From Mycobacterium sherrisii (GTDB lineage Bacteria > Actinomycetota > Actinomycetes > Mycobacteriales > Mycobacteriaceae), in NCBI RefSeq assembly GCF_002102355.1, contig NZ_LQPT01000051.1:52694-116693 (forward strand): a stretch of 64,000 nucleotides of DNA, read 5' to 3'. Made by a program: the position numbers and the translations under genes. Under the pieces are notes generated by a model. It saw only the letters and a program-made list of their open reading frames with translations. It made no database searches and had not been told where the DNA came from. Position 1 is the stretch's first letter, and each line of letters starts with the position of its first letter. Shown here piece by piece: positions 19,640-28,510 of this stretch.

Positions 19640-20923
19640 GTGAAGCGACTGGGAGCCGTGCTGGCGTCCATGGTGGGTCTGGCCTTCACCGCAAACGGGT
19701 ATCGGCCGTTGGGCAAAGGCGGATACGGCACGGCTTTTTCGTTCGCCTACGGTGTGGTCGCCTCGGAGTTACCGATGCAGTCGCTCGCCGTCCAATTCTC
19801 CACGCTGGCCGCGCTGTCGCGCCGGTTGCCCGCGCGGACCCTGAAATTCACCTGGCTGCTGTCGGCGCTGTCCTGGCTGGGCCTGCTGGGTCTGCGGCAT
19901 TTCGGGCGCCGGGCCAACGAGCCGCTGACGGCGGCGCTGGACGCCGGCTTGGGCGCCGAGCGGCGGCGCGAATCGGGTGATTTGTGGAAGCGCCCGGCGC
20001 CCGGCGGGGCGACGGCGAAAAAGCCCGGCGTGGCGCGCATGTTGCGCGTCTACCGCGACTACGCCCACGACGGCGACATCAGTTACGGGGAGTGCGGTTC
20101 GCGCAACCATCTCGACATCTGGCGCCGGCCCGACCTCGACCGCAACGGCCGGGCGCCGGTGCTGCTCCAGGTCCCCGGCGGCGCCTGGATGGTGGGAAAC
20201 AAACGCGGACAAGCACATCCGCTAATGAGCCACCTGGCCGAACTGGGCTGGATCTGTGTCGCGATCAACTACCGGCTCAGCCCCCGTTCCACCTGGCCGG
20301 ACCAGATCGTCGACGTCAAACGTGCGATCGCGTGGACGAAGGAGCACATCGCCGAGTACGGCGGTGACCCGGATTGGCTTGCGATCACCGGAGGTTCGGC
20401 CGGCGGGCACCTGACCGCGCTGGCCGCGCTGACCCCCAACGATCCGCGGTTCCAGCCGGGCTTCGAAGACGCCGATACCCGGGTGGACGTCGCGGTGCCG
20501 TTCTACGGCGTGTACGACTTCAACGCCACCGGCTCCGCGGTACACCCGTTGATGGCGGCCATGGTCGCCAAGAACGTGTTCAAGGTCAGCCGCACCGACA
20601 TCGCCGAACCGTTTCGTGCGGCGTCGCCGATCACCTACGTCCGCCCGGACGCCCCGCCGTTTTTCCTGCTGCACGGAACCAACGACACGCTGGTTCCGGT
20701 CGCGCAGGCCCGTAGTTTCGTCGCGCGGCTGCGCGAGGTCAGCCAACAGCCGGTCGTGTATGCCGAATTGCCCTGGGCGCAGCATGCATTCGACATCTTC
20801 GGGTCCGCCCGCGCGGCGCATGCCGCGGTCGCGGTCGAACAGTTCCTGGCCGAAATGTATGTGCGCCGCGGGCCGCTGCAACAGACGGCGACGACGGCCG
20901 CGGCGACCGGGACCGGCCGATGA
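19640..20923 (+). CDS. Membrane-anchored carboxylesterase/lipase (LipO/LipM-like)
   Basis: Alpha/beta-hydrolase of 427 aa in the hormone-sensitive-lipase group. The first 100 residues contain two or three hydrophobic segments likely to anchor it in the membrane. The catalytic half contains VPGGAW (oxyanion-hole variant of HGGG), the nucleophile elbow GGSAGG, the acid in HGTNDTLVP and the His in WAQHAFD. GTG 19640 is chosen because GGGGAGGA lies six bases upstream. The gene is convergent with the Sap-like gene, 12 bases away. Its substrate is unknown; a short-chain ester or lipid is typical for the family. Confidence 0.85.
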   Translation: MKRLGAVLASMVGLAFTANGYRPLGKGGYGTAFSFAYGVVASELPMQSLAVQFSTLAALSRRLPARTLKFTWLLSALSWLGLLGLRHFGRRANEPLTAALDAGLGAERRRESGDLWKRPAPGGATAKKPGVARMLRVYRDYAHDGDISYGECGSRNHLDIWRRPDLDRNGRAPVLLQVPGGAWMVGNKRGQAHPLMSHLAELGWICVAINYRLSPRSTWPDQIVDVKRAIAWTKEHIAEYGGDPDWLAITGGSAGGHLTALAALTPNDPRFQPGFEDADTRVDVAVPFYGVYDFNATGSAVHPLMAAMVAKNVFKVSRTDIAEPFRAASPITYVRPDAPPFFLLHGTNDTLVPVAQARSFVARLREVSQQPVVYAELPWAQHAFDIFGSARAAHAAVAVEQFLAEMYVRRGPLQQTATTAAATGTGR

Positions 20924-20935
20924 CGCGGCAACGCG

Positions 20936-21634
20936 TCACAGGCCGCGCGTTCCGATAACGACCAGCAGACACCCGGCCGCGGCCAGCGCTGCGGCCACCT
21001 CGACGCGCCGGCGCGACCGGATCCAGACCTGCAGTGTGACCATGCCGGCGCGGGTTCTGCGGGGCGCCAGCAGATAGGCCAGTAGCGGGAGTTCCACCAG
21101 CGCGAACGCCACCACATGGAACATCAGTAACGCGCCGAGCCGCGTCATGGCCGCAGTCCCCGACGCGACGATCGCGGCCAGCGCGGCCAGGTAATCGACG
21201 GACGGCAGCGCGATCCCGAGACCGGCCGCGCCCGCCACCCACAGCGACCGCCCGTGCAGCAGCCGCCGGGAAAAGCGGCCCAAACCGTGGTGCTCGCGCG
21301 GGTCGGGGCAATCCGCCGCCCGGCGCGCCTCGGCCCCGCCGCCGAGTCGGGACCGCCACCAGACCTGCGCGCTCAGCAGGATCGCGACCAGTAGCGCCAT
21401 CGCACCGATGAGGATCTGCAGCCTGGGCACGGTGAGCTGCGACGAATCGAGCAGCCGACGCTGCAGGCCGAACACCACGGCCAGTCCCACGGTCATACCC
21501 ATCGCGAATCCGCCGCACAGGAATGCCGACAGCTGCAGCACCGGCCTGGGACGGTGGAGCATCAACACCGTCATGCCGATCCGGAACGGCTCGACGCTCA
21601 TGGCAACGGCCATGAGCAGCAGGGTGATCCACAT
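20936..21634 (-). CDS. Sap/Gap-family membrane protein (sulfolipid/GPL-addressing type)
   Basis: Integral membrane protein of 232 aa with about six helices. It resembles the Sap (sulfolipid-1-addressing) and Gap (glycopeptidolipid-addressing) proteins, which are needed for transport of glycolipids to the mycobacterial surface; MSVEPFRIGMTVLML near the N-terminus is characteristic. A charged cytoplasmic loop lies around residues 105-135. It lies 55 bases downstream of the YeiH-family gene in the same direction and so is probably the last gene of the Stf0-CysD-CysNC operon. That placement suggests export of a sulfated (glyco)lipid, which is an inference. Family assignment is from recognition, not from a search. 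Confidence 0.72.
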   Translation of the reverse strand: MWITLLLMAVAMSVEPFRIGMTVLMLHRPRPVLQLSAFLCGGFAMGMTVGLAVVFGLQRRLLDSSQLTVPRLQILIGAMALLVAILLSAQVWWRSRLGGGAEARRAADCPDPREHHGLGRFSRRLLHGRSLWVAGAAGLGIALPSVDYLAALAAIVASGTAAMTRLGALLMFHVVAFALVELPLLAYLLAPRRTRAGMVTLQVWIRSRRRVEVAAALAAAGCLLVVIGTRGL

Positions 21635-21689
21635 ACCGGGCGTCCACGTTACCGGCCGGCCTGCCGGCGGCCGCCCCCGCCCTAGGTGG

Positions 21690-22808
21690 CTAGGAGGTTA
21701 CGCCCCAATGGAATACGCGCGATGTCAGCAACACGATGCCCAGGGAGACCGTCGCGACCACGGCCAGGCCGATGACGGCAACGACGAGCGGACGCCATCC
21801 GGTGCGCGCGATTTGGCGGAAGTCGGTGTTGAGGCCGACGCCAGCGAAGGTGAGCAGGAACGCCCATTTGGACACGTTCGCCAGATTGGCGGTTTGGCCC
21901 TTGGTCAGCCAGCCCGCCGTCGCGATGGCCGACACCGCAAGAAAGCCCAGCACGAACTTGGGAAACTTTTGCCAGATGAAGGCGGCCTTGGCGGTTGCGC
22001 CGGCGGCGATCTCGTCAGCCTGCCCGCGCGCGGCCCAGTACAGCGCGAAGCCGAGCACGACGAACCCGATCAGCGCGTTGCGGGTCGACTTCACCAGGAC
22101 CGCAATCTTGCCGGCCTGATCGGAATACAGGTAACCGGTGGCGGTCGTCTCGGCGGTGTTGTCCACCGACAGGCCCGCCCACAGACCGAATTCGTGATCG
22201 GTGAGCCCGATGACGTGTCCCAACGGCGGCAACACGAACAACGACACGGCGCCCAGCGCCAGGATGGCCGCGATCGCGTAACTGACGTCGGAGTTGCGCG
22301 CCCGGATCGCGCCCTTGGCGGCCACGATCGCCGACACCCCGCAGATCGAGGTGCCGATGGCCAGCAGCGAACCCAGTTTCCCGGACAGCCCAAATGCCCG
22401 CGCCACGACGATGATCACGGTCCCCGCGATGGTCATATCCACCAGGATCTGAACCAGGCTGATGGCGCCGAGTTTGGCGATGTCGCCCAGCACGAACCGC
22501 GCGCCCAGGACCACGATGCCGACCTTGAGCCAGAACTCGTAGGTCTGCACACCCGGACGGAAAATTCGGTGCAGTCCGACGGTGTTGGTGATGAGCAGCC
22601 CAATCACGATGGCCCACAACACGTATTCGATGTCGGGCAGCCGCCAGTGTTCATGCTTGGCCAGCGCGTTCCACCAGATCTGGGCGTATTTGCCGAGCAG
22701 CCCGACGGCGATCAGCAGCACGATGCCGGGCAGGTAATCCAGCGGCCGCCGGCTGGAGAATGCCGGTTCGTCCAGCGACTCGTCGGGTTCGGCTTCGGTG
22801 GTGCTCAC
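21690..22808 (-). CDS. YeiH-family (UPF0324) putative sulfate/sulfite exporter
   Basis: Polytopic membrane protein of 372 aa with about ten helices. [31 protein letters not shown] and [11 protein letters not shown] are hallmark segments of the PF03601/YeiH family, proposed to export sulfate or sulfite. The GTG at 22808 ([11 protein letters not shown]) starts four bases after the stop of a 38-codon ORF and lacks its own strong Shine-Dalgarno, so translation is probably coupled. It lies downstream of cysD and cysNC, consistent with disposal of excess oxyanion when sulfate activation runs. The direction and substrate of transport are family-level inference. Confidence 0.86.
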
Positions 22809-22812
22809 GCCG

Positions 22813-22929
22813 TCACCACGGAATCTTCGGCAGCGCGTCGGCCACCGCCAGCGCCGTGATCGCCCCGGCAACCAACGTCGCCCACCAGTCCACCGATACC
22901 GAGCCGACTCGCTCGCGCCAATCACTCAC
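22813..22929 (-). CDS. Single-helix 38-residue membrane peptide upstream of the YeiH gene
   Basis: Small ORF starting at GTG 22929. The product opens [20 protein letters not shown], continues with an Ala/Val/Leu-rich helix ([13 protein letters not shown]) and ends PKIPW. It reads as one transmembrane helix with a short charged N-terminus and aromatic belt residues (WW and a terminal W). It lies 55 bases after cysNC and its TGA is four bases before the YeiH-family GTG, so it is in the operon and probably coupled. It may be a small subunit or stabiliser of the exporter. I recognise no family; spacing and composition are the evidence. Confidence 0.6.
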
Positions 22930-22984
22930 GCACGCATGGTTGCCCGCACGGGGCCGGCCGCCAAGTGATTGGATCGTGATGAGT

Positions 22985-24901
22985 CTAGCTGGGCCGCGGG
23001 CTGCGTTGATTGAGCAGCTCGATGACCTGCGCGACGAGGTCGTCGATGTCGGCCTCGGTGGTGTCGATCACCAGGTCGGCGTTGTCGGGAGGCTCGTAGG
23101 GCGCGTCGACGCCGGTGAGTCCCTTGAGCTCGCCGCTGCGGGCCCGGGCGTAGAGGCCCTTCGGGTCGCGCCGTTCGCACTCTGCCAACGACGTCGCCAC
23201 ATGCACCTCGATGAAGGGCAGCTTGGCGGCGTCGTTGAGTTCGCGGGCGATCTCGCGGTCCGACTTCAGCGGCGAGACCAGCGACGCCAACGCGACCACG
23301 CCGGCATCGGCCAGCAGACGAGTCAAATGGCCGACGCGCCTGATGTTTTCGGTGCGGTCACCGGGGGAGAAGCCCAAATCGTCGGACAGGCCGTGGCGCA
23401 AGTTGTCGCCGTCGAGCAGGTAGGCCACCCGGCCGGACTCGACGAGTGCGCGCTCGACGGCGACCGCGACCGTCGACTTGCCCGATGCGGGCAGACCGGT
23501 GAACCAGATCGTGGCGCCCGGCTGCCCGGTGGCCTGCCAGCGGTGCGCCCGGTCCAGTGCCGACGGATGCCAGCGAATGTCGGTGCGGGCGTGGCTGCCC
23601 GGCTTGACCTCGCGGGCCTCGATGATGGTTCCGGCGCCGACGGTGTCGTTGGTCGTCTCGTCGATCAAAATGAAGGCGCCGCTGTCGCGATTGTCGGTGT
23701 AGCTGTCGGCGATGACGACGCTGCTGGTGCGCAGGGTGAGGGTGCCGATGTCGTTGAGCGCCAGTTCAACCGGCTGATCCAATTCTTCGAGCGTTTCGGG
23801 GTCCAGCCGGGTGTGCAGCTCCTGCACGGTGGCCCGCACGGTATTGGTGGTTTGTTTGAGCGCCAGTCGATCGCCGGCCCGCAGTGGGGCGTCGACGAAC
23901 CAGCACGCCGTCGCGTCGAGTTCGCGGGCCAGCACCGGCAGGACGGCGTCGTCGGTTCCGCTGACCAGCACGTCGCCCCGGCCGACGTCGATGTCGTCGG
24001 CCAGTTCGATCGAAACCGACAGTGGCGCAACAGCGGTGGTGCGTTCGTCGTCGAGGGTGTCCAGCGCCGTCACCGTCGAGCGGGTGCCCGAGGGCAGCGA
24101 GATCACCGGATCCCCGACGGACAGCGTGCCCGCGGCCAGCCGCCCGGTGTAGCGGCGGCGTGCGTCGGCGGTGGGCCGAGACACCCATTGCACCGGCAGT
24201 CGCAGCCGCGCCGGCTCGGCCTGCGGGGCGGCCAGCTCGACACCTTCGAGGTAGTCCAGCAGCGTGGGTCCGTCGTACCACGGCGTGCGCTCGGAGCGAT
24301 GCACGACGTTGTCGCCCAGCTTGGCCGCCAGCGGAATCACCGTGATGTCGACCTCGCCCAGCCGGGCCGCCAACGTCTGCAGCTGCTGTTGCACCTCGGC
24401 GAATTTCGTCTCGTCGAAGTCGATCAGATCGATCTTGTTGACCGCCGCGACAAAGTGCTTGATACCCAACAGCTTTGCGATGCGGGCGTGGCGGCGGGTC
24501 TGCCGCAACACCCCGGCGCGGGCGTCCACCAGCAGGATGGCCACGTGCGCGTTGGAGGCGCCGGTGAACATGTTGCGGGTGTAGCGCTCGTGGCCGGGGG
24601 TGTCGGCCAGGATGTAGCTTCGGGTTTGCGTGGAGAAGAACCGGTACGCGACGTCGATGGTGATGCCCTGCTCACGTTCGGCGCGCAGCCCGTCGGACAA
24701 CGCGGCCAGGTCGGCGACGCCCTCTTCGTCGGTGACCGCCTCCAGGTGGTCCAACGGCAGGCTGTCGGTGTCGTGCAGCAACCTCCCGATCAGGGTGCTC
24801 TTCCCGTCGTCGACGGAGCCGGCGGTGGCGATGCGCAACAGCTGGCGGGTCAAACCCTTGGGCGGCAACGTGTTTTGGTCGGCCTGCTCGGTGCTGGTCA
24901 T
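22985..24901 (-). CDS. cysNC: Bifunctional sulfate adenylyltransferase large subunit / APS kinase CysNC
   Basis: Fusion protein of 638 aa. The N-terminal CysN GTPase drives ATP sulfurylase (with CysD) to make APS; the C-terminal CysC domain phosphorylates APS to PAPS. GTPase motifs: TAGSVDDGKST near residue 27, DTPGHERY near 105, NKID near 160. The kinase P-loop GLPASGKST lies near residue 467. The ATG overlaps the cysD stop by one base (TGATG on the minus strand), so the pair is translationally coupled. Having APS kinase fused in an operon with a sulfotransferase means the operon delivers PAPS as sulfate donor, not only reduced sulfur. Confidence 0.97.
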   Translation of the reverse strand: MTSTEQADQNTLPPKGLTRQLLRIATAGSVDDGKSTLIGRLLHDTDSLPLDHLEAVTDEEGVADLAALSDGLRAEREQGITIDVAYRFFSTQTRSYILADTPGHERYTRNMFTGASNAHVAILLVDARAGVLRQTRRHARIAKLLGIKHFVAAVNKIDLIDFDETKFAEVQQQLQTLAARLGEVDITVIPLAAKLGDNVVHRSERTPWYDGPTLLDYLEGVELAAPQAEPARLRLPVQWVSRPTADARRRYTGRLAAGTLSVGDPVISLPSGTRSTVTALDTLDDERTTAVAPLSVSIELADDIDVGRGDVLVSGTDDAVLPVLARELDATACWFVDAPLRAGDRLALKQTTNTVRATVQELHTRLDPETLEELDQPVELALNDIGTLTLRTSSVVIADSYTDNRDSGAFILIDETTNDTVGAGTIIEAREVKPGSHARTDIRWHPSALDRAHRWQATGQPGATIWFTGLPASGKSTVAVAVERALVESGRVAYLLDGDNLRHGLSDDLGFSPGDRTENIRRVGHLTRLLADAGVVALASLVSPLKSDREIARELNDAAKLPFIEVHVATSLAECERRDPKGLYARARSGELKGLTGVDAPYEPPDNADLVIDTTEADIDDLVAQVIELLNQRSPRPS

Positions 24902-25815
24902 CAGAAGTACCCCTCTCGCTTGCGGTCCTCCATCGCCGCTGCCGAGGTCCGGTCGTCCGCTCGGGTTTCGCCGCGCTCGGACACCGTGGCCGCCGAGATC
25001 TCGCGGATCACGCCCGCGATGTCGGTGGCGCGGGACCGCACCGCCCCGGTGATGGTGAGGTCGCCGACGGTGCGGTAGCGCACCCACTGCGTCGCCGACG
25101 TTTCACCGTCCTGCGGGCCGGCGTACTGCGAGACGGCCAGCAGGATGCCGTCGCGCTCGAACACCTCGCGCTCGTGTGCGTAGTAAATCGACGGTATTTC
25201 AAGGTCTTCCAGCTCGATGTAACGCCACACGTCCAGCTCGGTCCAGTTGCTCAGCGGGAACACCCGGACCTGTTCGCCCTTCTTGATGCGGCCGTTGTAC
25301 AGCGACCAAGGCTCGGGGCGCTGTGCGCGGGGATCCCACTGGCCGAACTCGTCGCGGAAGCTCAGGATGCGTTCCTTGGCGCGGGCCCGTTCCTCGTCGC
25401 GGCGCGCACCGCCGAACGCGGCGTCGAAGCCGCCGGCCTCGAGCGCGTCGAGCAGGGTGCGGGTCTGGGCCCGGTTGCGTGAGGCATTGGGGCCGGGGTC
25501 GGGAACCCGGCCGTTGTCGATCGACTCCTGTACCGACGCGACGATCAACTTGTGCCCCGCACCGGTGACTCGGCGGTCGCGGAACTCGATGACCTCGTCG
25601 AAGTTGTGGCCGGTGTCCACGTGCATCACCGGGAACGGCAGGGGCAGCGGGCGAAATGCCTTCTCGGCCAAGCGAAGCAGCACGATCGAGTCCTTGCCCG
25701 CGGAAAACAGCAGGACGGGTCGTTCCAGCTCGGCAACGACCTCGCGGATGATGTGCACCGCTTCGGCTTCCAGCAGCCGCAATTCGTCGACGCGGCGCGC
25801 CTCAGTCGGGGTCAT
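24901..25815 (-). CDS. cysD: Sulfate adenylyltransferase small subunit CysD
   Basis: ATP sulfurylase catalytic subunit, 304 aa, forming APS from sulfate and ATP together with the CysN GTPase. The PP-loop SAGKDSIVLLRLA is near residue 38, followed by HVDTGHNFDEVIEFRD and the C-terminal RYRTVGDLTITGAV, all typical of CysD. The gene starts 48 bases after the stf0 stop and overlaps cysNC by one base. In H37Rv cysDN lie elsewhere (Rv1285-1286), so this location next to stf0 is a different arrangement from the tuberculosis complex. Confidence 0.97.
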   Translation of the reverse strand: MTPTEARRVDELRLLEAEAVHIIREVVAELERPVLLFSAGKDSIVLLRLAEKAFRPLPLPFPVMHVDTGHNFDEVIEFRDRRVTGAGHKLIVASVQESIDNGRVPDPGPNASRNRAQTRTLLDALEAGGFDAAFGGARRDEERARAKERILSFRDEFGQWDPRAQRPEPWSLYNGRIKKGEQVRVFPLSNWTELDVWRYIELEDLEIPSIYYAHEREVFERDGILLAVSQYAGPQDGETSATQWVRYRTVGDLTITGAVRSRATDIAGVIREISAATVSERGETRADDRTSAAAMEDRKREGYF

Positions 25816-25863
25816 TGCCGCCGTTCCTCCTCATCGCTGCGCTCTGCATCGTCACCGGCGGGG

Positions 25864-26667
25864 TCATGTCGGTAATCCCTGTTTCTCGGCGTCCGCCCGG
25901 TACCGGTCCACCCATTCGTCGGAGCGCTTGTCGGCTTGACGCTCCAACATCGGCTGCGGTGCGAGCCGTGGATCGAGTCCCAGCGTCTCCAGGATGGTGC
26001 CGACCACCTCGGTCAGGTTGCGCCACAGCACCGGATACGGGACTTCCATCGGCTTGACGTCTTCCTCGGCGAACCAGGTCTGCCAGCCCTTCTCCTGCTC
26101 GCGCAGCATCGTGACCACGTGCGCAATGGCGCCGGCGTGGTAGGTGGCGCGCGCGTCGCGGGCCGGGTCGGGCCTGCCCCGCCAGACCCGGGTCTGCACC
26201 GCACGCCAGAACGACACCGCCTGCGAGACGACATCGGGCCGGTGGATGTGGACGAACAACGGCTCCTCGCCGACGACGTCGCGGATGGCGGCCAGCAGTC
26301 CCGCGCCCGAACGGTTCGGCAGTTCGCTGGCGCGATGCAACAGCAGCGGCGTCTGATTCCACATCAATTTGCCGCCCCAGACGCCGTTCGGCGTCCGGCC
26401 GACGGTGCGGATGTAGTCGCGCCAGATTTCGGCGGGCGCCAGGTCGGGCTTTCCCGCGTCCAGGGGGTCGAGCAGCCGCAGGATCGACTCGTCCTCGACC
26501 CCGGCGAACCACTCCCGGGGCTGCGGGGCCTGGCTGGTGCTGGGCAGGTATTGGAAGAACTCCTGCGGCTCGCCGGCGACGCCGGTTGCCCGCAGCGATT
26601 CGACGAGCAGCGTGCTGCCGCTGCGCTGGGACGCCAGCACCAGATACGACGAGGGATGGTGTGTCAC
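25864..26667 (-). CDS. stf0: Stf0-family PAPS-dependent sulfotransferase (trehalose 2-sulfotransferase type)
   Basis: Cytosolic sulfotransferase of 267 aa that in mycobacteria transfers sulfate from PAPS to the 2-position of trehalose, the first step of sulfolipid-type glycolipids. The 5'-phosphosulfate-binding loop SQRSGSTLL lies at residues 14-22, the Glu of [10 protein letters not shown] near 35 corresponds to the family's catalytic-base region, and [15 protein letters not shown] near 140 is the 3'-phosphate-binding region. GTG 26667 is the start. It is the first gene of a five- or six-gene minus-strand operon with cysD and cysNC. The acceptor could be another sugar; trehalose is the family precedent. 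Confidence 0.9.
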
Positions 26668-26728
26668 TACCGCAGACTAACCGGCCGGAAATGTGCTGCA
26701 ACACGAGCAATTACGTTCACGTTGATTC

Positions 26729-26739
26729 CAAAGGAGGTT
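26729..26739 (-). promoter_or_regulatory. Anti-Shine-Dalgarno-like element in the stf0 leader
   Basis: The minus-strand leader RNA contains ACCTCCTTTGG, identical over nine bases to the 3' end of 16S rRNA. CTCCT can pair with AGGAG before the upstream leader ORF or with downstream SD-like sequence. It lies between the leader-ORF stop and stf0, so translation of the leader could govern its pairing. This is inferred from sequence only. Confidence 0.4.
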
Positions 26740-26747
26740 TGCTGCGC

Positions 26748-26798
26748 TCAGCGACCCGGCGCCGCCGCGCGGACACCGATGCCAATCCTGCAAAACAT
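26748..26798 (-). CDS. Cysteine-containing 16-residue leader peptide upstream of stf0-cysD-cysNC
   Basis: ATG 26798 is preceded by GAGGAG with six bases of spacing. The product is MFCRIGIGVRAAAPGR: 16 residues, one Cys at position 3 and three Arg. Short upstream ORFs with Cys and Arg residues are known as putative leader peptides before actinobacterial sulfur-metabolism operons, and cysteine-responsive uORF attenuation has been described in mycobacteria. It lies 80 bases upstream of the stf0 start. A role as a cysteine sensor is inference; the ORF and its ribosome binding site are directly visible. Confidence 0.6.
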   Translation of the reverse strand: MFCRIGIGVRAAAPGR

Positions 26799-26905
26799 AG
26801 GTCGCTCCTCATCCGGTATTTGCTCGCGCAGGTCGCCACCCTGCGTACCGCCGGGTGCCCCTTTGCCATTGCGGTCAAACCCCGGGATGCCGAGGGAACT
26901 GACGC

Positions 26906-28510
26906 CTAGACGTCGTCGGGCACCCGTAATCCCAGCGAGAACAGCAGCCGCACTTCGGGATCGGCCAGCGAAACGGACAGCAATTTCTCGATCCGGCGCA
27001 CCCGGTAGCGAACCGTGTTGGGATGCACGTGCAACCATGCGGCAGCCAGGCCCGCGTCGCCGAAGCTGTCCAGGTATGCCCGCAGTGTCTCGGCCAGCAC
27101 CGGATCCCGCGCCCGCAGCTCGCGTATCCGCGGATCGACCAACCGTTCGTCCGAGCCGATCAGGCCGACGATTTCGTCGAGCAGGACGGTGGTTCGCGCC
27201 TCGGCCAGCGAGGTCACCCGGCCGATCGAAACCGGATGGCGCGCAGCGCTGTCCAGCACACGATCGACCTCGGCGCGCGCGGCCGCGACACCCGTCAGGC
27301 CAGCGACCGGCGCGGCGATCACCGCCCGCAGCTCGACACCGAGCTCGGTGCGCAGCGCGCCGATCGTGCCGCGCACCCATGACGCGACCGATCGGGTCGT
27401 CGAGGTCTGCGGCAGCAACACATAGACGCGTGAGGCTTGCGCGGCCACCTGTGCATCCGGGCGAAAAGCGCTGGCGCTCAATGCCATCACATCGGCGAGT
27501 CGGGCATGCCCGGGCTCGGCACCGGTGGTGTCGAAGCCGATCAGCGTGGCGGTGCGGTCGGCGGGCAGACCCAGTTCGCGGGCGATCGCGACCACCTCGG
27601 CGGGATCGCCGTCGACCAACCCGAGGAGTTGTTGAATCCGCCGCGCATGTGTGGACGGCCGGGCCGCGAGCCGGGACATGATGCGGGCGGCCAGGACCGC
27701 TGCGCCGCGCAGGATCTCGTCGGCGTCGTCGGCCAACGGCTGCGATCCCTGCTGCACCCAGATGGTGCCGGCGAACTCCGGCGCTGGGCGCGCGCCGGCT
27801 GGCGGGCGGTGGACCCCGATCGCCAGGCGCGGGCGCAACCCGAGTTCCGGGCGCTCGTCGATGCGTACCACCTCGCCACCGGCCCGCAACGCGTCAAAGA
27901 TGCCCCATTGGTTGATCCACTTCAGATGCTCCGGCGGTCCGGCCCGGCCCAGGATGGACAGCCGGCGCAGCTCGTCGGCCTCGTCGTTGGAGGCCGAGTA
28001 GGCAAGCACGTGCGACTGCGCGTTCTCGATGCTGACCATGCCGTGAATGCGGTCGGCCAGCGACTGCGCCAGGCCGAACAAGTCGGTGCCGGAATCCTCC
28101 GTCGGGTCGGAGCGGTCGCCGTGGTGGTCCAGGACGTGATTGACCAACTGGTAGAGCCGCTCCCACCGGGCCTGCGGCTCCACCGCCACCACCGCCGTCC
28201 CGACAGCGGCCGCCCGGGCCACCAACGCCTCGGCCGGCTTCTTGACGAAGATGGCCACCGGTACCCGGTCCCGCGCCTGCTTGTCGATCCACCGCAGCGC
28301 CTCGCCGTCGCCGACGCCCAGCAAGAAAAAGACGTCGGCCGAGCCCGCCGCCGCGGCCAGGCCGAGCCGAACGTCGTCGGAATCGATCAACGCCGCGGAG
28401 CGCACCGGCAGGTCCAGGCCGCGCGGGGCGCGACCGTCGGGGACCAGGCTGACCAGCGTCGCATCCAACGCCAGCAACAATTGGCCCAGCCCGACCCCAG
28501 GCACCCGCAT
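26906..28510 (-). CDS. pruC: PucR-family transcriptional regulator of proline catabolism PruC (Rv1186c-like)
   Basis: Regulator of 534 aa. The N-terminal two thirds is a ligand-sensing region (VFFLLGVGDGEALRWIDKQ and a GGDEF-like/CdaR-type middle). The C-terminal 60 residues contain the PucR HTH: AYLDSFGDAGLAAAWLHVHPNTVRYRVRRIEKLL. The gene is divergent from pruAB, and in mycobacteria PruC activates pruAB in response to proline. ATG 28510 has TAGAAT eight bases upstream and no Shine-Dalgarno sequence, suggesting a leaderless mRNA. The frame stays open far upstream, but that extension is antisense to pruA and is discarded. Confidence 0.88.
   Translation of the reverse strand: MRVPGVGLGQLLLALDATLVSLVPDGRAPRGLDLPVRSAALIDSDDVRLGLAAAAGSADVFFLLGVGDGEALRWIDKQARDRVPVAIFVKKPAEALVARAAAVGTAVVAVEPQARWERLYQLVNHVLDHHGDRSDPTEDSGTDLFGLAQSLADRIHGMVSIENAQSHVLAYSASNDEADELRRLSILGRAGPPEHLKWINQWGIFDALRAGGEVVRIDERPELGLRPRLAIGVHRPPAGARPAPEFAGTIWVQQGSQPLADDADEILRGAAVLAARIMSRLAARPSTHARRIQQLLGLVDGDPAEVVAIARELGLPADRTATLIGFDTTGAEPGHARLADVMALSASAFRPDAQVAAQASRVYVLLPQTSTTRSVASWVRGTIGALRTELGVELRAVIAAPVAGLTGVAAARAEVDRVLDSAARHPVSIGRVTSLAEARTTVLLDEIVGLIGSDERLVDPRIRELRARDPVLAETLRAYLDSFGDAGLAAAWLHVHPNTVRYRVRRIEKLLSVSLADPEVRLLFSLGLRVPDDV

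Follow-up and report, generated by a model that had tools for sequence, protein, structure and literature searches.

Organization of the locus

The window analysed here, a stretch of 64,000 nucleotides from Mycobacterium sherrisii (contig NZ_LQPT01000051.1 of assembly GCF_002102355.1), carries a cluster of six genes that we consider a putative sulfation operon. All six lie on the minus strand between positions 26667 and 20936. The cluster begins with stf0 (25864..26667), predicted to encode a trehalose 2-sulfotransferase of 267 amino acids, and continues with cysD2 (24901..25815) and cysN2C (22985..24901), which are sulfation-linked paralogues for sulfate adenylyltransferase subunit 2 and for subunit 1 fused to adenosine 5'-phosphosulfate (APS) kinase, respectively. 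These are followed by an open reading frame (ORF) of 38 codons (22813..22929), which has a GTG start and specifies a single hydrophobic helix with a VDWWAT motif, by a gene for a YeiH-family membrane transporter of 372 amino acids (21690..22808) and by a gene for a Sap-like membrane protein of 232 amino acids (20936..21634). A preliminary description of this DNA had listed seven closely spaced ORFs on the same strand. Re-reading of the gaps, which in operon order amount to 48, -1, 55, 4 and 55 nt, bears out the spacing and retains these six ORFs; the seventh, a supposed leader peptide upstream of stf0, had to be abandoned (see below). Likewise, the proposed coupled starts hold for cysD2 and cysN2C, which overlap by 1 nt, and do not hold for the small ORF and yeiH, which are separated by 4 nt without any overlap.

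The functions of the encoded enzymes can be predicted from their families. The stf0 product matches PF09037 with 355 bits and the NCBIfam model for trehalose 2-sulfotransferase (NF047724) with 456 bits against a cut-off of 400, and the mycobacterial Stf0 of known structure (PDB 1tex) aligns with residues 2-266, that is over 265 residues, with 506 bits, which places both proteins in the same family. Among named species, the closest stf0 genes (89-90% identity) belong to M. triplex, M. genavense and their relatives. CysD2 scores above the NCBIfam cut-off, and the fusion of CysN with APS kinase reaches 778 bits (cut-off 715). The YeiH protein contains the full PF03601 domain, as is typical for the putative sulfate exporter family (307 bits, cut-off 24.5), but fails the narrower TIGR00698 model (118.5 bits, cut-off 232.6), and the Sap-like protein matches PF11139 (SfLAP) with 188.9 bits against a cut-off of 35. 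No Rfam family matched the window at gathering thresholds, and a tRNA scan of it was likewise empty. With regard to transcription as a unit, which the preliminary description had proposed, an E. coli-type scan detected neither a terminator-like site between stf0 and cysD2 nor any promoter-like site from 20850 to 27000; this is compatible with an operon, yet it is weak evidence, since the same scan missed the putative stf0 promoter described below. Terminator-like sites in the scanned region occurred at chance level (three found, 2.9 expected).

A second sulfate-activation pair accompanies stf0

M. sherrisii possesses another cysD and another cysNC on a different contig, the products of which are 67% and 51% identical to those from the window. 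Among the CysD matches listed for 198 genomes of the genus, proteins of the stf0-linked class are 86-100% identical to the window protein, whereas the housekeeping class shows only about 62-68% identity. The linked cysD is confined to genomes for which stf0 is listed (81 of 81; of 147 genomes with an stf0 match, 143 had its position listed) and is the direct neighbor of stf0 in 76 of them (no more than 1.2 kb away on the same strand). At least two CysD matches are present in 80 of these 81 genomes, the exception being genome G112. In a phylogenetic tree, in which one outlier was retained (L133_HK_60, branch length 4.8), a single branch with support values of 100/98 parts 37 linked from 16 housekeeping CysD entries. 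A CysNC tree, calculated by a quick method as a check, separated 35 linked from 15 housekeeping entries in the same manner (support 100).

The claim of the preliminary description that a complete set of enzymes for the formation of 3'-phosphoadenosine 5'-phosphosulfate (PAPS) resides next to Stf0 is thus borne out, and the coupling of PAPS formation to Stf0 is well supported. Since the genome contains another cysD/cysNC pair and the linked cysD was encountered exclusively in the company of stf0, CysD2 and CysN2C are apparently dedicated to sulfation. The comparison with M. tuberculosis H37Rv put forward earlier, according to which stf0 and cysDN (Rv1285-1286) are far apart in that organism, turned out to be misleading. 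The CysN/CysC kinase entries 4bzp and 4rfv from the PDB, which we take to be M. tuberculosis proteins, score much higher with the housekeeping copy (322 and 348 bits) than with the copy in the window (186 and 183 bits). Rv1285-1286 therefore looks like the other paralogue, such that two different paralogues had been set against each other.

Linked-class cysD-cysNC genes were also seen away from stf0 (L094, L095, L096 and L097). Their neighbors include a BrkB-like gene (L095), genes for short-chain dehydrogenases (L095 and L096), an acyl-CoA dehydrogenase-like gene (L097) and a following pucR (L094). In a genome of 4.5 Mb, stf0 is trailed by a short remnant of cysD2 (L163; residues 18-57, 85% identity).

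A small protein encoded in front of yeiH

The 38-codon ORF precedes yeiH in all 45 named loci in which yeiH resides near stf0 and also in all ten loci fetched in which yeiH resides elsewhere. With a ratio of nonsynonymous to synonymous polymorphism (pN/pS) of 0.285, calculated from 50 distinct core sequences of the window type (type A), it evolves as a protein. A second class of YeiH proteins (type B), which are only 32-35% identical, comes with a small ORF of its own, MNEDWLAVIVGL..., that overlaps yeiH by 4 nt in each of 20 loci (20 of the 32 matches with E ≤ about 5e-40 were examined). Hence, an ORF for a helix with a DW(W/L)A motif is situated in front of two YeiH classes, in 52 type-A entries (50 distinct loci) and in 20 type-B loci. 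When 23 distant YeiH loci were considered (including L091-L093), the ORF was found at the 20 with E ≤ about 5e-40, and a pattern search did not recognize it at the three weaker ones (L183-L185). A similar ORF is present at the locus of a distant actinobacterial YeiH (L120), and none was found at the E. coli-like YeiH loci examined. A YeiH from a halophile plasmid was considered as a further example and rejected, as the ORF of 48 amino acids in front of the Halomarina YeiH lacks the DWWA motif. The genome of M. sherrisii itself encodes a second PF03601 protein of about 32-35% identity (L090, G000:C76:104300-115300), for which no small ORF was apparent by eye.

In long YeiH proteins from Caballeronia, Sphingobium and one actinobacterial genome, an N-terminal helix of the EDWWA type is fused to the transporter, and motif and position agree in all three proteins. 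In Hymenobacter, a similar helix is encoded by an ORF ending in front of yeiH. On the basis of position, EDWWA motif and pairwise scores, the small ORF is probably the split-off N-terminal helix of YeiH, which would make the transporter a two-piece system and set it apart from the remainder of the family in addition to its low TIGR00698 score. As far as our searches show, the pairing of this ORF with yeiH in these loci is new. Further observations concern yeiH itself: signs of decay were noted in the form of an in-frame stop in two genomes (G031:C1:5276016 and G076:C1:598933) and of a merely partial alignment in M. gordonae (L063), and in Sphingobium the gene for the fused protein follows a serine O-acetyltransferase gene (L187:177-2520), which is a further tie to cysteine synthesis.

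The region upstream of stf0

An alignment of 15 upstream regions revealed a conserved block immediately 5' of stf0, consisting of a -10-like TANNNT element 6 nt in front of the GTG start codon and often a TTG 16 nt further upstream. In the window, the corresponding putative promoter (26674..26701, minus strand) reads TTGCAG, 16 nt, TAGTCT, 6 nt and the stf0 GTG. The pattern TTG-N15-19-TANNNT-N4-9-start was present in 41 of 107 stf0 entries (105 distinct loci) and in only 9 of 2140 shuffled sequences. As this promoter-like block directly precedes the gene, stf0 is probably transcribed without a leader and the 16-codon ORF further upstream (MFCRIGIGVRAAAPGR, 26748..26798, minus strand), which the preliminary description had regarded as a leader peptide, lies outside the transcript. 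Moreover, when the short cysteine-containing ORFs in the 250 nt preceding stf0 were compared by eye across 80 named relatives, no counterpart emerged, and the 16 codons look like a chance ORF. In these relatives and in the upstream alignment there was also no leaderless cysteine-rich ORF between promoter and stf0 that could act as a poly-cysteine attenuator.

Further upstream, a dyad (TTGGAATCAACGTGAACGTAA, 26711..26731, not assigned to a strand) begins at -64 relative to the start codon of stf0 and matches the consensus TTN4TCAN3TGAN4AA in ten of ten positions. At least nine positions match upstream of stf0 in all 49 entries with yeiH nearby (47 distinct loci, as L161 and L162 repeat L059 and L062) and in 31 of the 58 remaining stf0 entries, namely 19 of the 35 in which cysD2 is the only companion and 12 of the 23 in which stf0 stands by itself. 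Dinucleotide-shuffled sequences produced such a match in 9 of 5350 cases. The complete M. sherrisii assembly contains four exact sites, and the reversed control none. In ten related genomes, nine of them with an exact site, the dyad recurs at stf0, in front of the type-B small ORF/yeiH pair and between a hemN-like gene and a gene for a sulfite/nitrite reductase-type protein of the NIR_SIR family; both genes were confirmed by profile scans in L205 and L208 and the hemN-like gene alone in L203. The NIR_SIR gene is presumably the one labelled sirA. Among NIR_SIR loci with a pattern-recognized cysteine-rich leader, nine of ten carry a dyad with at least nine matches (L209-L217, at -69/-70 of the leaderless start; L237 does not), as do four of the remaining loci, compared with 0 of 390 and 3 of 630 shuffled sequences, respectively. 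For the type-B small ORF/yeiH loci, where the counts stand without a shuffle control, at least nine positions match in 15 of 20 and eight in the other five, mostly at -66/-67. All 15 housekeeping cysD loci lacked a dyad of this quality. The dyad thus apparently represents an operator shared with a sulfite reductase-type operon, and the sulfation operon is probably part of a sulfur regulon.

Several sites deserve mention in their own right. The NIR_SIR gene of M. sherrisii (L209; G000:C101:75429-76697 and flank) follows a leaderless cysteine-rich leader, VTAAQPSSRIALVARRHIDLKRVCSCSCPA, with a dyad of nine matches at -69. In three genomes exact dyad-like sites precede an ORF of about 330 codons (L193, L195 and L201); the only one scanned (L193) is NMT1-like and may specify a solute-binding protein of an ABC transporter. 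Another exact dyad lies near a gene for a class-V aminotransferase of the cysteine desulfurase type (L200).

Distribution and genomic context

The preliminary description had called for a comparative search for co-located stf0, cysD and yeiH. In 80 named Mycobacterium stf0 loci, genes of the same strand near stf0 include cysD in 34, yeiH in 45 and both in 17 cases; the gene order is not due to chance. In the window, the operon is flanked by pucR, pruA and pruB on one side and by fbiC and an aminotransferase gene on the other. Each of the 17 loci with both genes shares at least one flank with the window, either the genes for esterase, amino acid permease or aminotransferase on one side or pucR-pruA on the other. 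Of the 28 loci with yeiH and without cysD, nine are situated at the pucR site, and 19 show none of the genes of that site in the stretch fetched. In H37Rv, the equivalent site is presumably occupied by pks3/4-papA3-mmpL10, as pointed out earlier, and the flanks of the window are compatible with this. Of the 45 loci that have yeiH in the vicinity of stf0, 18 also contain the Sap-like gene, and M. sherrisii encodes two further PF11139 proteins above the cut-off elsewhere in the genome. In M. gastri, M. innocens, M. ostraviense, M. persicum and M. attenuatum (L064, L065, L068, L072 and L073) stf0 resides beside pucR without cysD2 or yeiH, and a dyad was not found at these five stf0 loci (best six to seven of ten positions). 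An LPMO (lytic polysaccharide monooxygenase)-like gene follows stf0 in L064.

Outside the genus, 81 of 251 genomes from other genera of the family have an stf0 match. In 20 stf0 loci chosen to spread over these genera, cysD-cysNC directly follow stf0 in 17 cases. A sulfatase gene was encountered immediately in front of stf0 in M. wolinskyi and several other genera (L069, L126-L129, L141 and L144), and an older module may thus pair sulfation with desulfation.

Discussion

In our judgement, the most probable interpretation, held with moderate confidence, is that of a sulfur-regulated sulfation operon with its own PAPS supply and a two-piece YeiH transporter for an inorganic sulfur anion. A sulfur-responsive regulator would bind to the dyad at 26711-26731 and control a leaderless promoter with transcription starting at the stf0 GTG. 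CysD2 and the CysN2 domain would convert sulfate and ATP to APS, the fused APS kinase would form PAPS, and Stf0 would spend it on the formation of trehalose 2-sulfate. Being distinct paralogues that accompany stf0, CysD2 and CysN2C would supply the sulfation branch independently of the housekeeping pair. The 38-codon protein and YeiH would jointly form the transporter, most likely for sulfate or sulfite that accumulates when the sulfation branch is running, less likely for trehalose 2-sulfate. The Sap-like protein would be an accessory membrane protein of the operon.

A number of observations weigh against this interpretation. The linked cysD is not adjacent to stf0 in five of the 81 genomes, and, since relatives are not independent of each other, P values for co-occurrence overstate its significance. 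Three of the four exact dyads in M. sherrisii are situated away from stf0, with one falling within a coding ORF (L188, C33:11603) and two lacking a recognized sulfur gene nearby (L190, C84:502, and L191, C90:15957); among 30 NIR_SIR loci fetched irrespective of the motif just 13 have a dyad of at least nine matches, and no dyad was present at the seven stf0-unlinked type-A yeiH loci scanned out of ten (best six to eight of ten positions). Hidden Markov models (HMMs) of the small ORF missed the fused YeiH N-termini in a search of 42,824 six-frame stretches. In pairwise comparisons of the window peptide with the helix sequences 13, 19, 192 and 58 of 1000 shuffled sequences scored as well, and a different part of the Sphingobium YeiH scored 30 with the window peptide compared with 29 for the helix. 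For the type-B peptide, the corresponding numbers (0, 0, 3 and 0 of 1000) are convincing, those for the window peptide weaker. Finally, what is available from Salmonella on YeiH is a requirement for sulfite resistance and not a demonstration of transport (PMC12880088).

The failure of the HMMs also feeds an explanation by which the 38-codon ORF encodes a small protein that has no relation to the transporter or does nothing but couple translation to yeiH. The fused proteins furthermore contain a stretch between helix and core that is absent from mycobacterial YeiH. On the other hand, constraint at the protein level, a DW(W/L)A helix in front of two YeiH classes that are so dissimilar, and the fused order in Caballeronia, Sphingobium and the actinobacterial genome speak against it. 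We regard this explanation as improbable.

As to cargo, the preliminary description had the operon export the sulfated product or excess anion. In the most elaborate version of product export, the small protein and YeiH would carry trehalose 2-sulfate while the Sap-like protein would help to place its lipid form at the cell surface. It is in line with this that yeiH lies near stf0 even when there is no cysD2 (13 of 27 linked genomes and 28 of 45 named loci), that such loci occur both at the pucR site and without any of its genes in view, and that PF11139 is named for a sulfolipid-addressing protein. Distribution points the other way: 60 genomes contain a YeiH of the window class, and in 33 of them it is not near stf0 (within 6.5 kb on the same contig and strand), seven of these 33 being devoid of any stf0 match. 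A dedicated exporter of trehalose sulfate is therefore disfavoured. The Sap-like gene, moreover, is missing from most of the yeiH loci and has two relatives elsewhere in the genome, and the Salmonella phenotype concerns sulfite. Export of the sulfated sugar thus appears unlikely to us, and an inorganic sulfur anion is the likelier cargo of YeiH. That same phenotype would suit a different scenario, in which APS reductase works in reverse upon accumulation of sulfite, its product is drawn off into trehalose 2-sulfate by APS kinase and Stf0, and YeiH exports sulfite. The dyad shared with the NIR_SIR operon fits here as well, and the authors of a study on Rhodococcus argue for oxidation and detoxification of sulfite by this route, of which they propose the first part; CysD2 and Stf0 were detected there only in cultures on dibenzothiophene (PMC8557817). 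The operon is, though, devoid of an APS reductase gene, and the direction in which ATP sulfurylase works cannot be read from its sequence. We consider such a detoxification route rather doubtful and retain a sulfation operon with PAPS supply and anion transport as the working model.

The combination of stf0 with dedicated sulfate activation is of a known kind. A stf0-cysD-cysNC cluster has been described as a second sulfate-activation complex in Rhodococcus qingshengii IGTS8 and, just as in the window, an additional ATP sulfurylase, fused to APS kinase, is located beside stf0 and apart from the housekeeping copy (PMC8557817). In the accessible portion of that article the cluster is presented without mention of yeiH, a small ORF or a Sap-like gene, and a YeiH is noted elsewhere in the genome. 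The other Rhodococcus copy, CysN1D1, differs in having no kinase fusion, whereas both copies are fused in M. sherrisii. What the window adds is a YeiH that is probably split and a sulfur operator that is apparently shared; in the open-licence literature we recognized no description of the small ORF, the dyad or a linkage of stf0 with yeiH. The M. tuberculosis stf0 differs from the gene in the window in that it stands apart from cysD-cysNC and feeds sulfolipid-1.

Leaderless small ORFs with poly-cysteine stretches that respond to cysteine have been reported for mycobacteria (Canestrari et al., 2020, as cited in PMC9094748). The leader in front of the NIR_SIR gene, which shares the dyad, looks to be of that kind, whereas stf0 has no such leader and only the upstream dyad in common with it. 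The existence of a CysB-like master regulator in mycobacteria is left open in a review from 2011, as far as its available text goes (PMC3141025).

Sulfated trehalose has been studied mainly as the starting point of the M. tuberculosis sulfolipid. It is conceivable, and we offer this only tentatively, that the operon constitutes the sulfation branch of a mycobacterial sulfur regulon that has not been described so far and is recognizable by TTN4TCAN3TGAN4AA. PAPS-dependent sulfation, the reduction of sulfite and a YeiH exporter encoded by two genes would then answer to one signal, and trehalose sulfation would give activated sulfur a route of overflow or protection and would not only be the first step towards a surface lipid. 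That stf0 is accompanied by dedicated sulfate-activating enzymes in many other mycobacteria and also beyond the genus suggests an older function in the handling of sulfur. For sulfur regulation in mycobacteria, the dyad would provide a concrete handle at the level of DNA, and the two-piece YeiH would be a case in which a very small helix subunit of a transporter has a gene of its own, of a type that is easily overlooked by gene finders.

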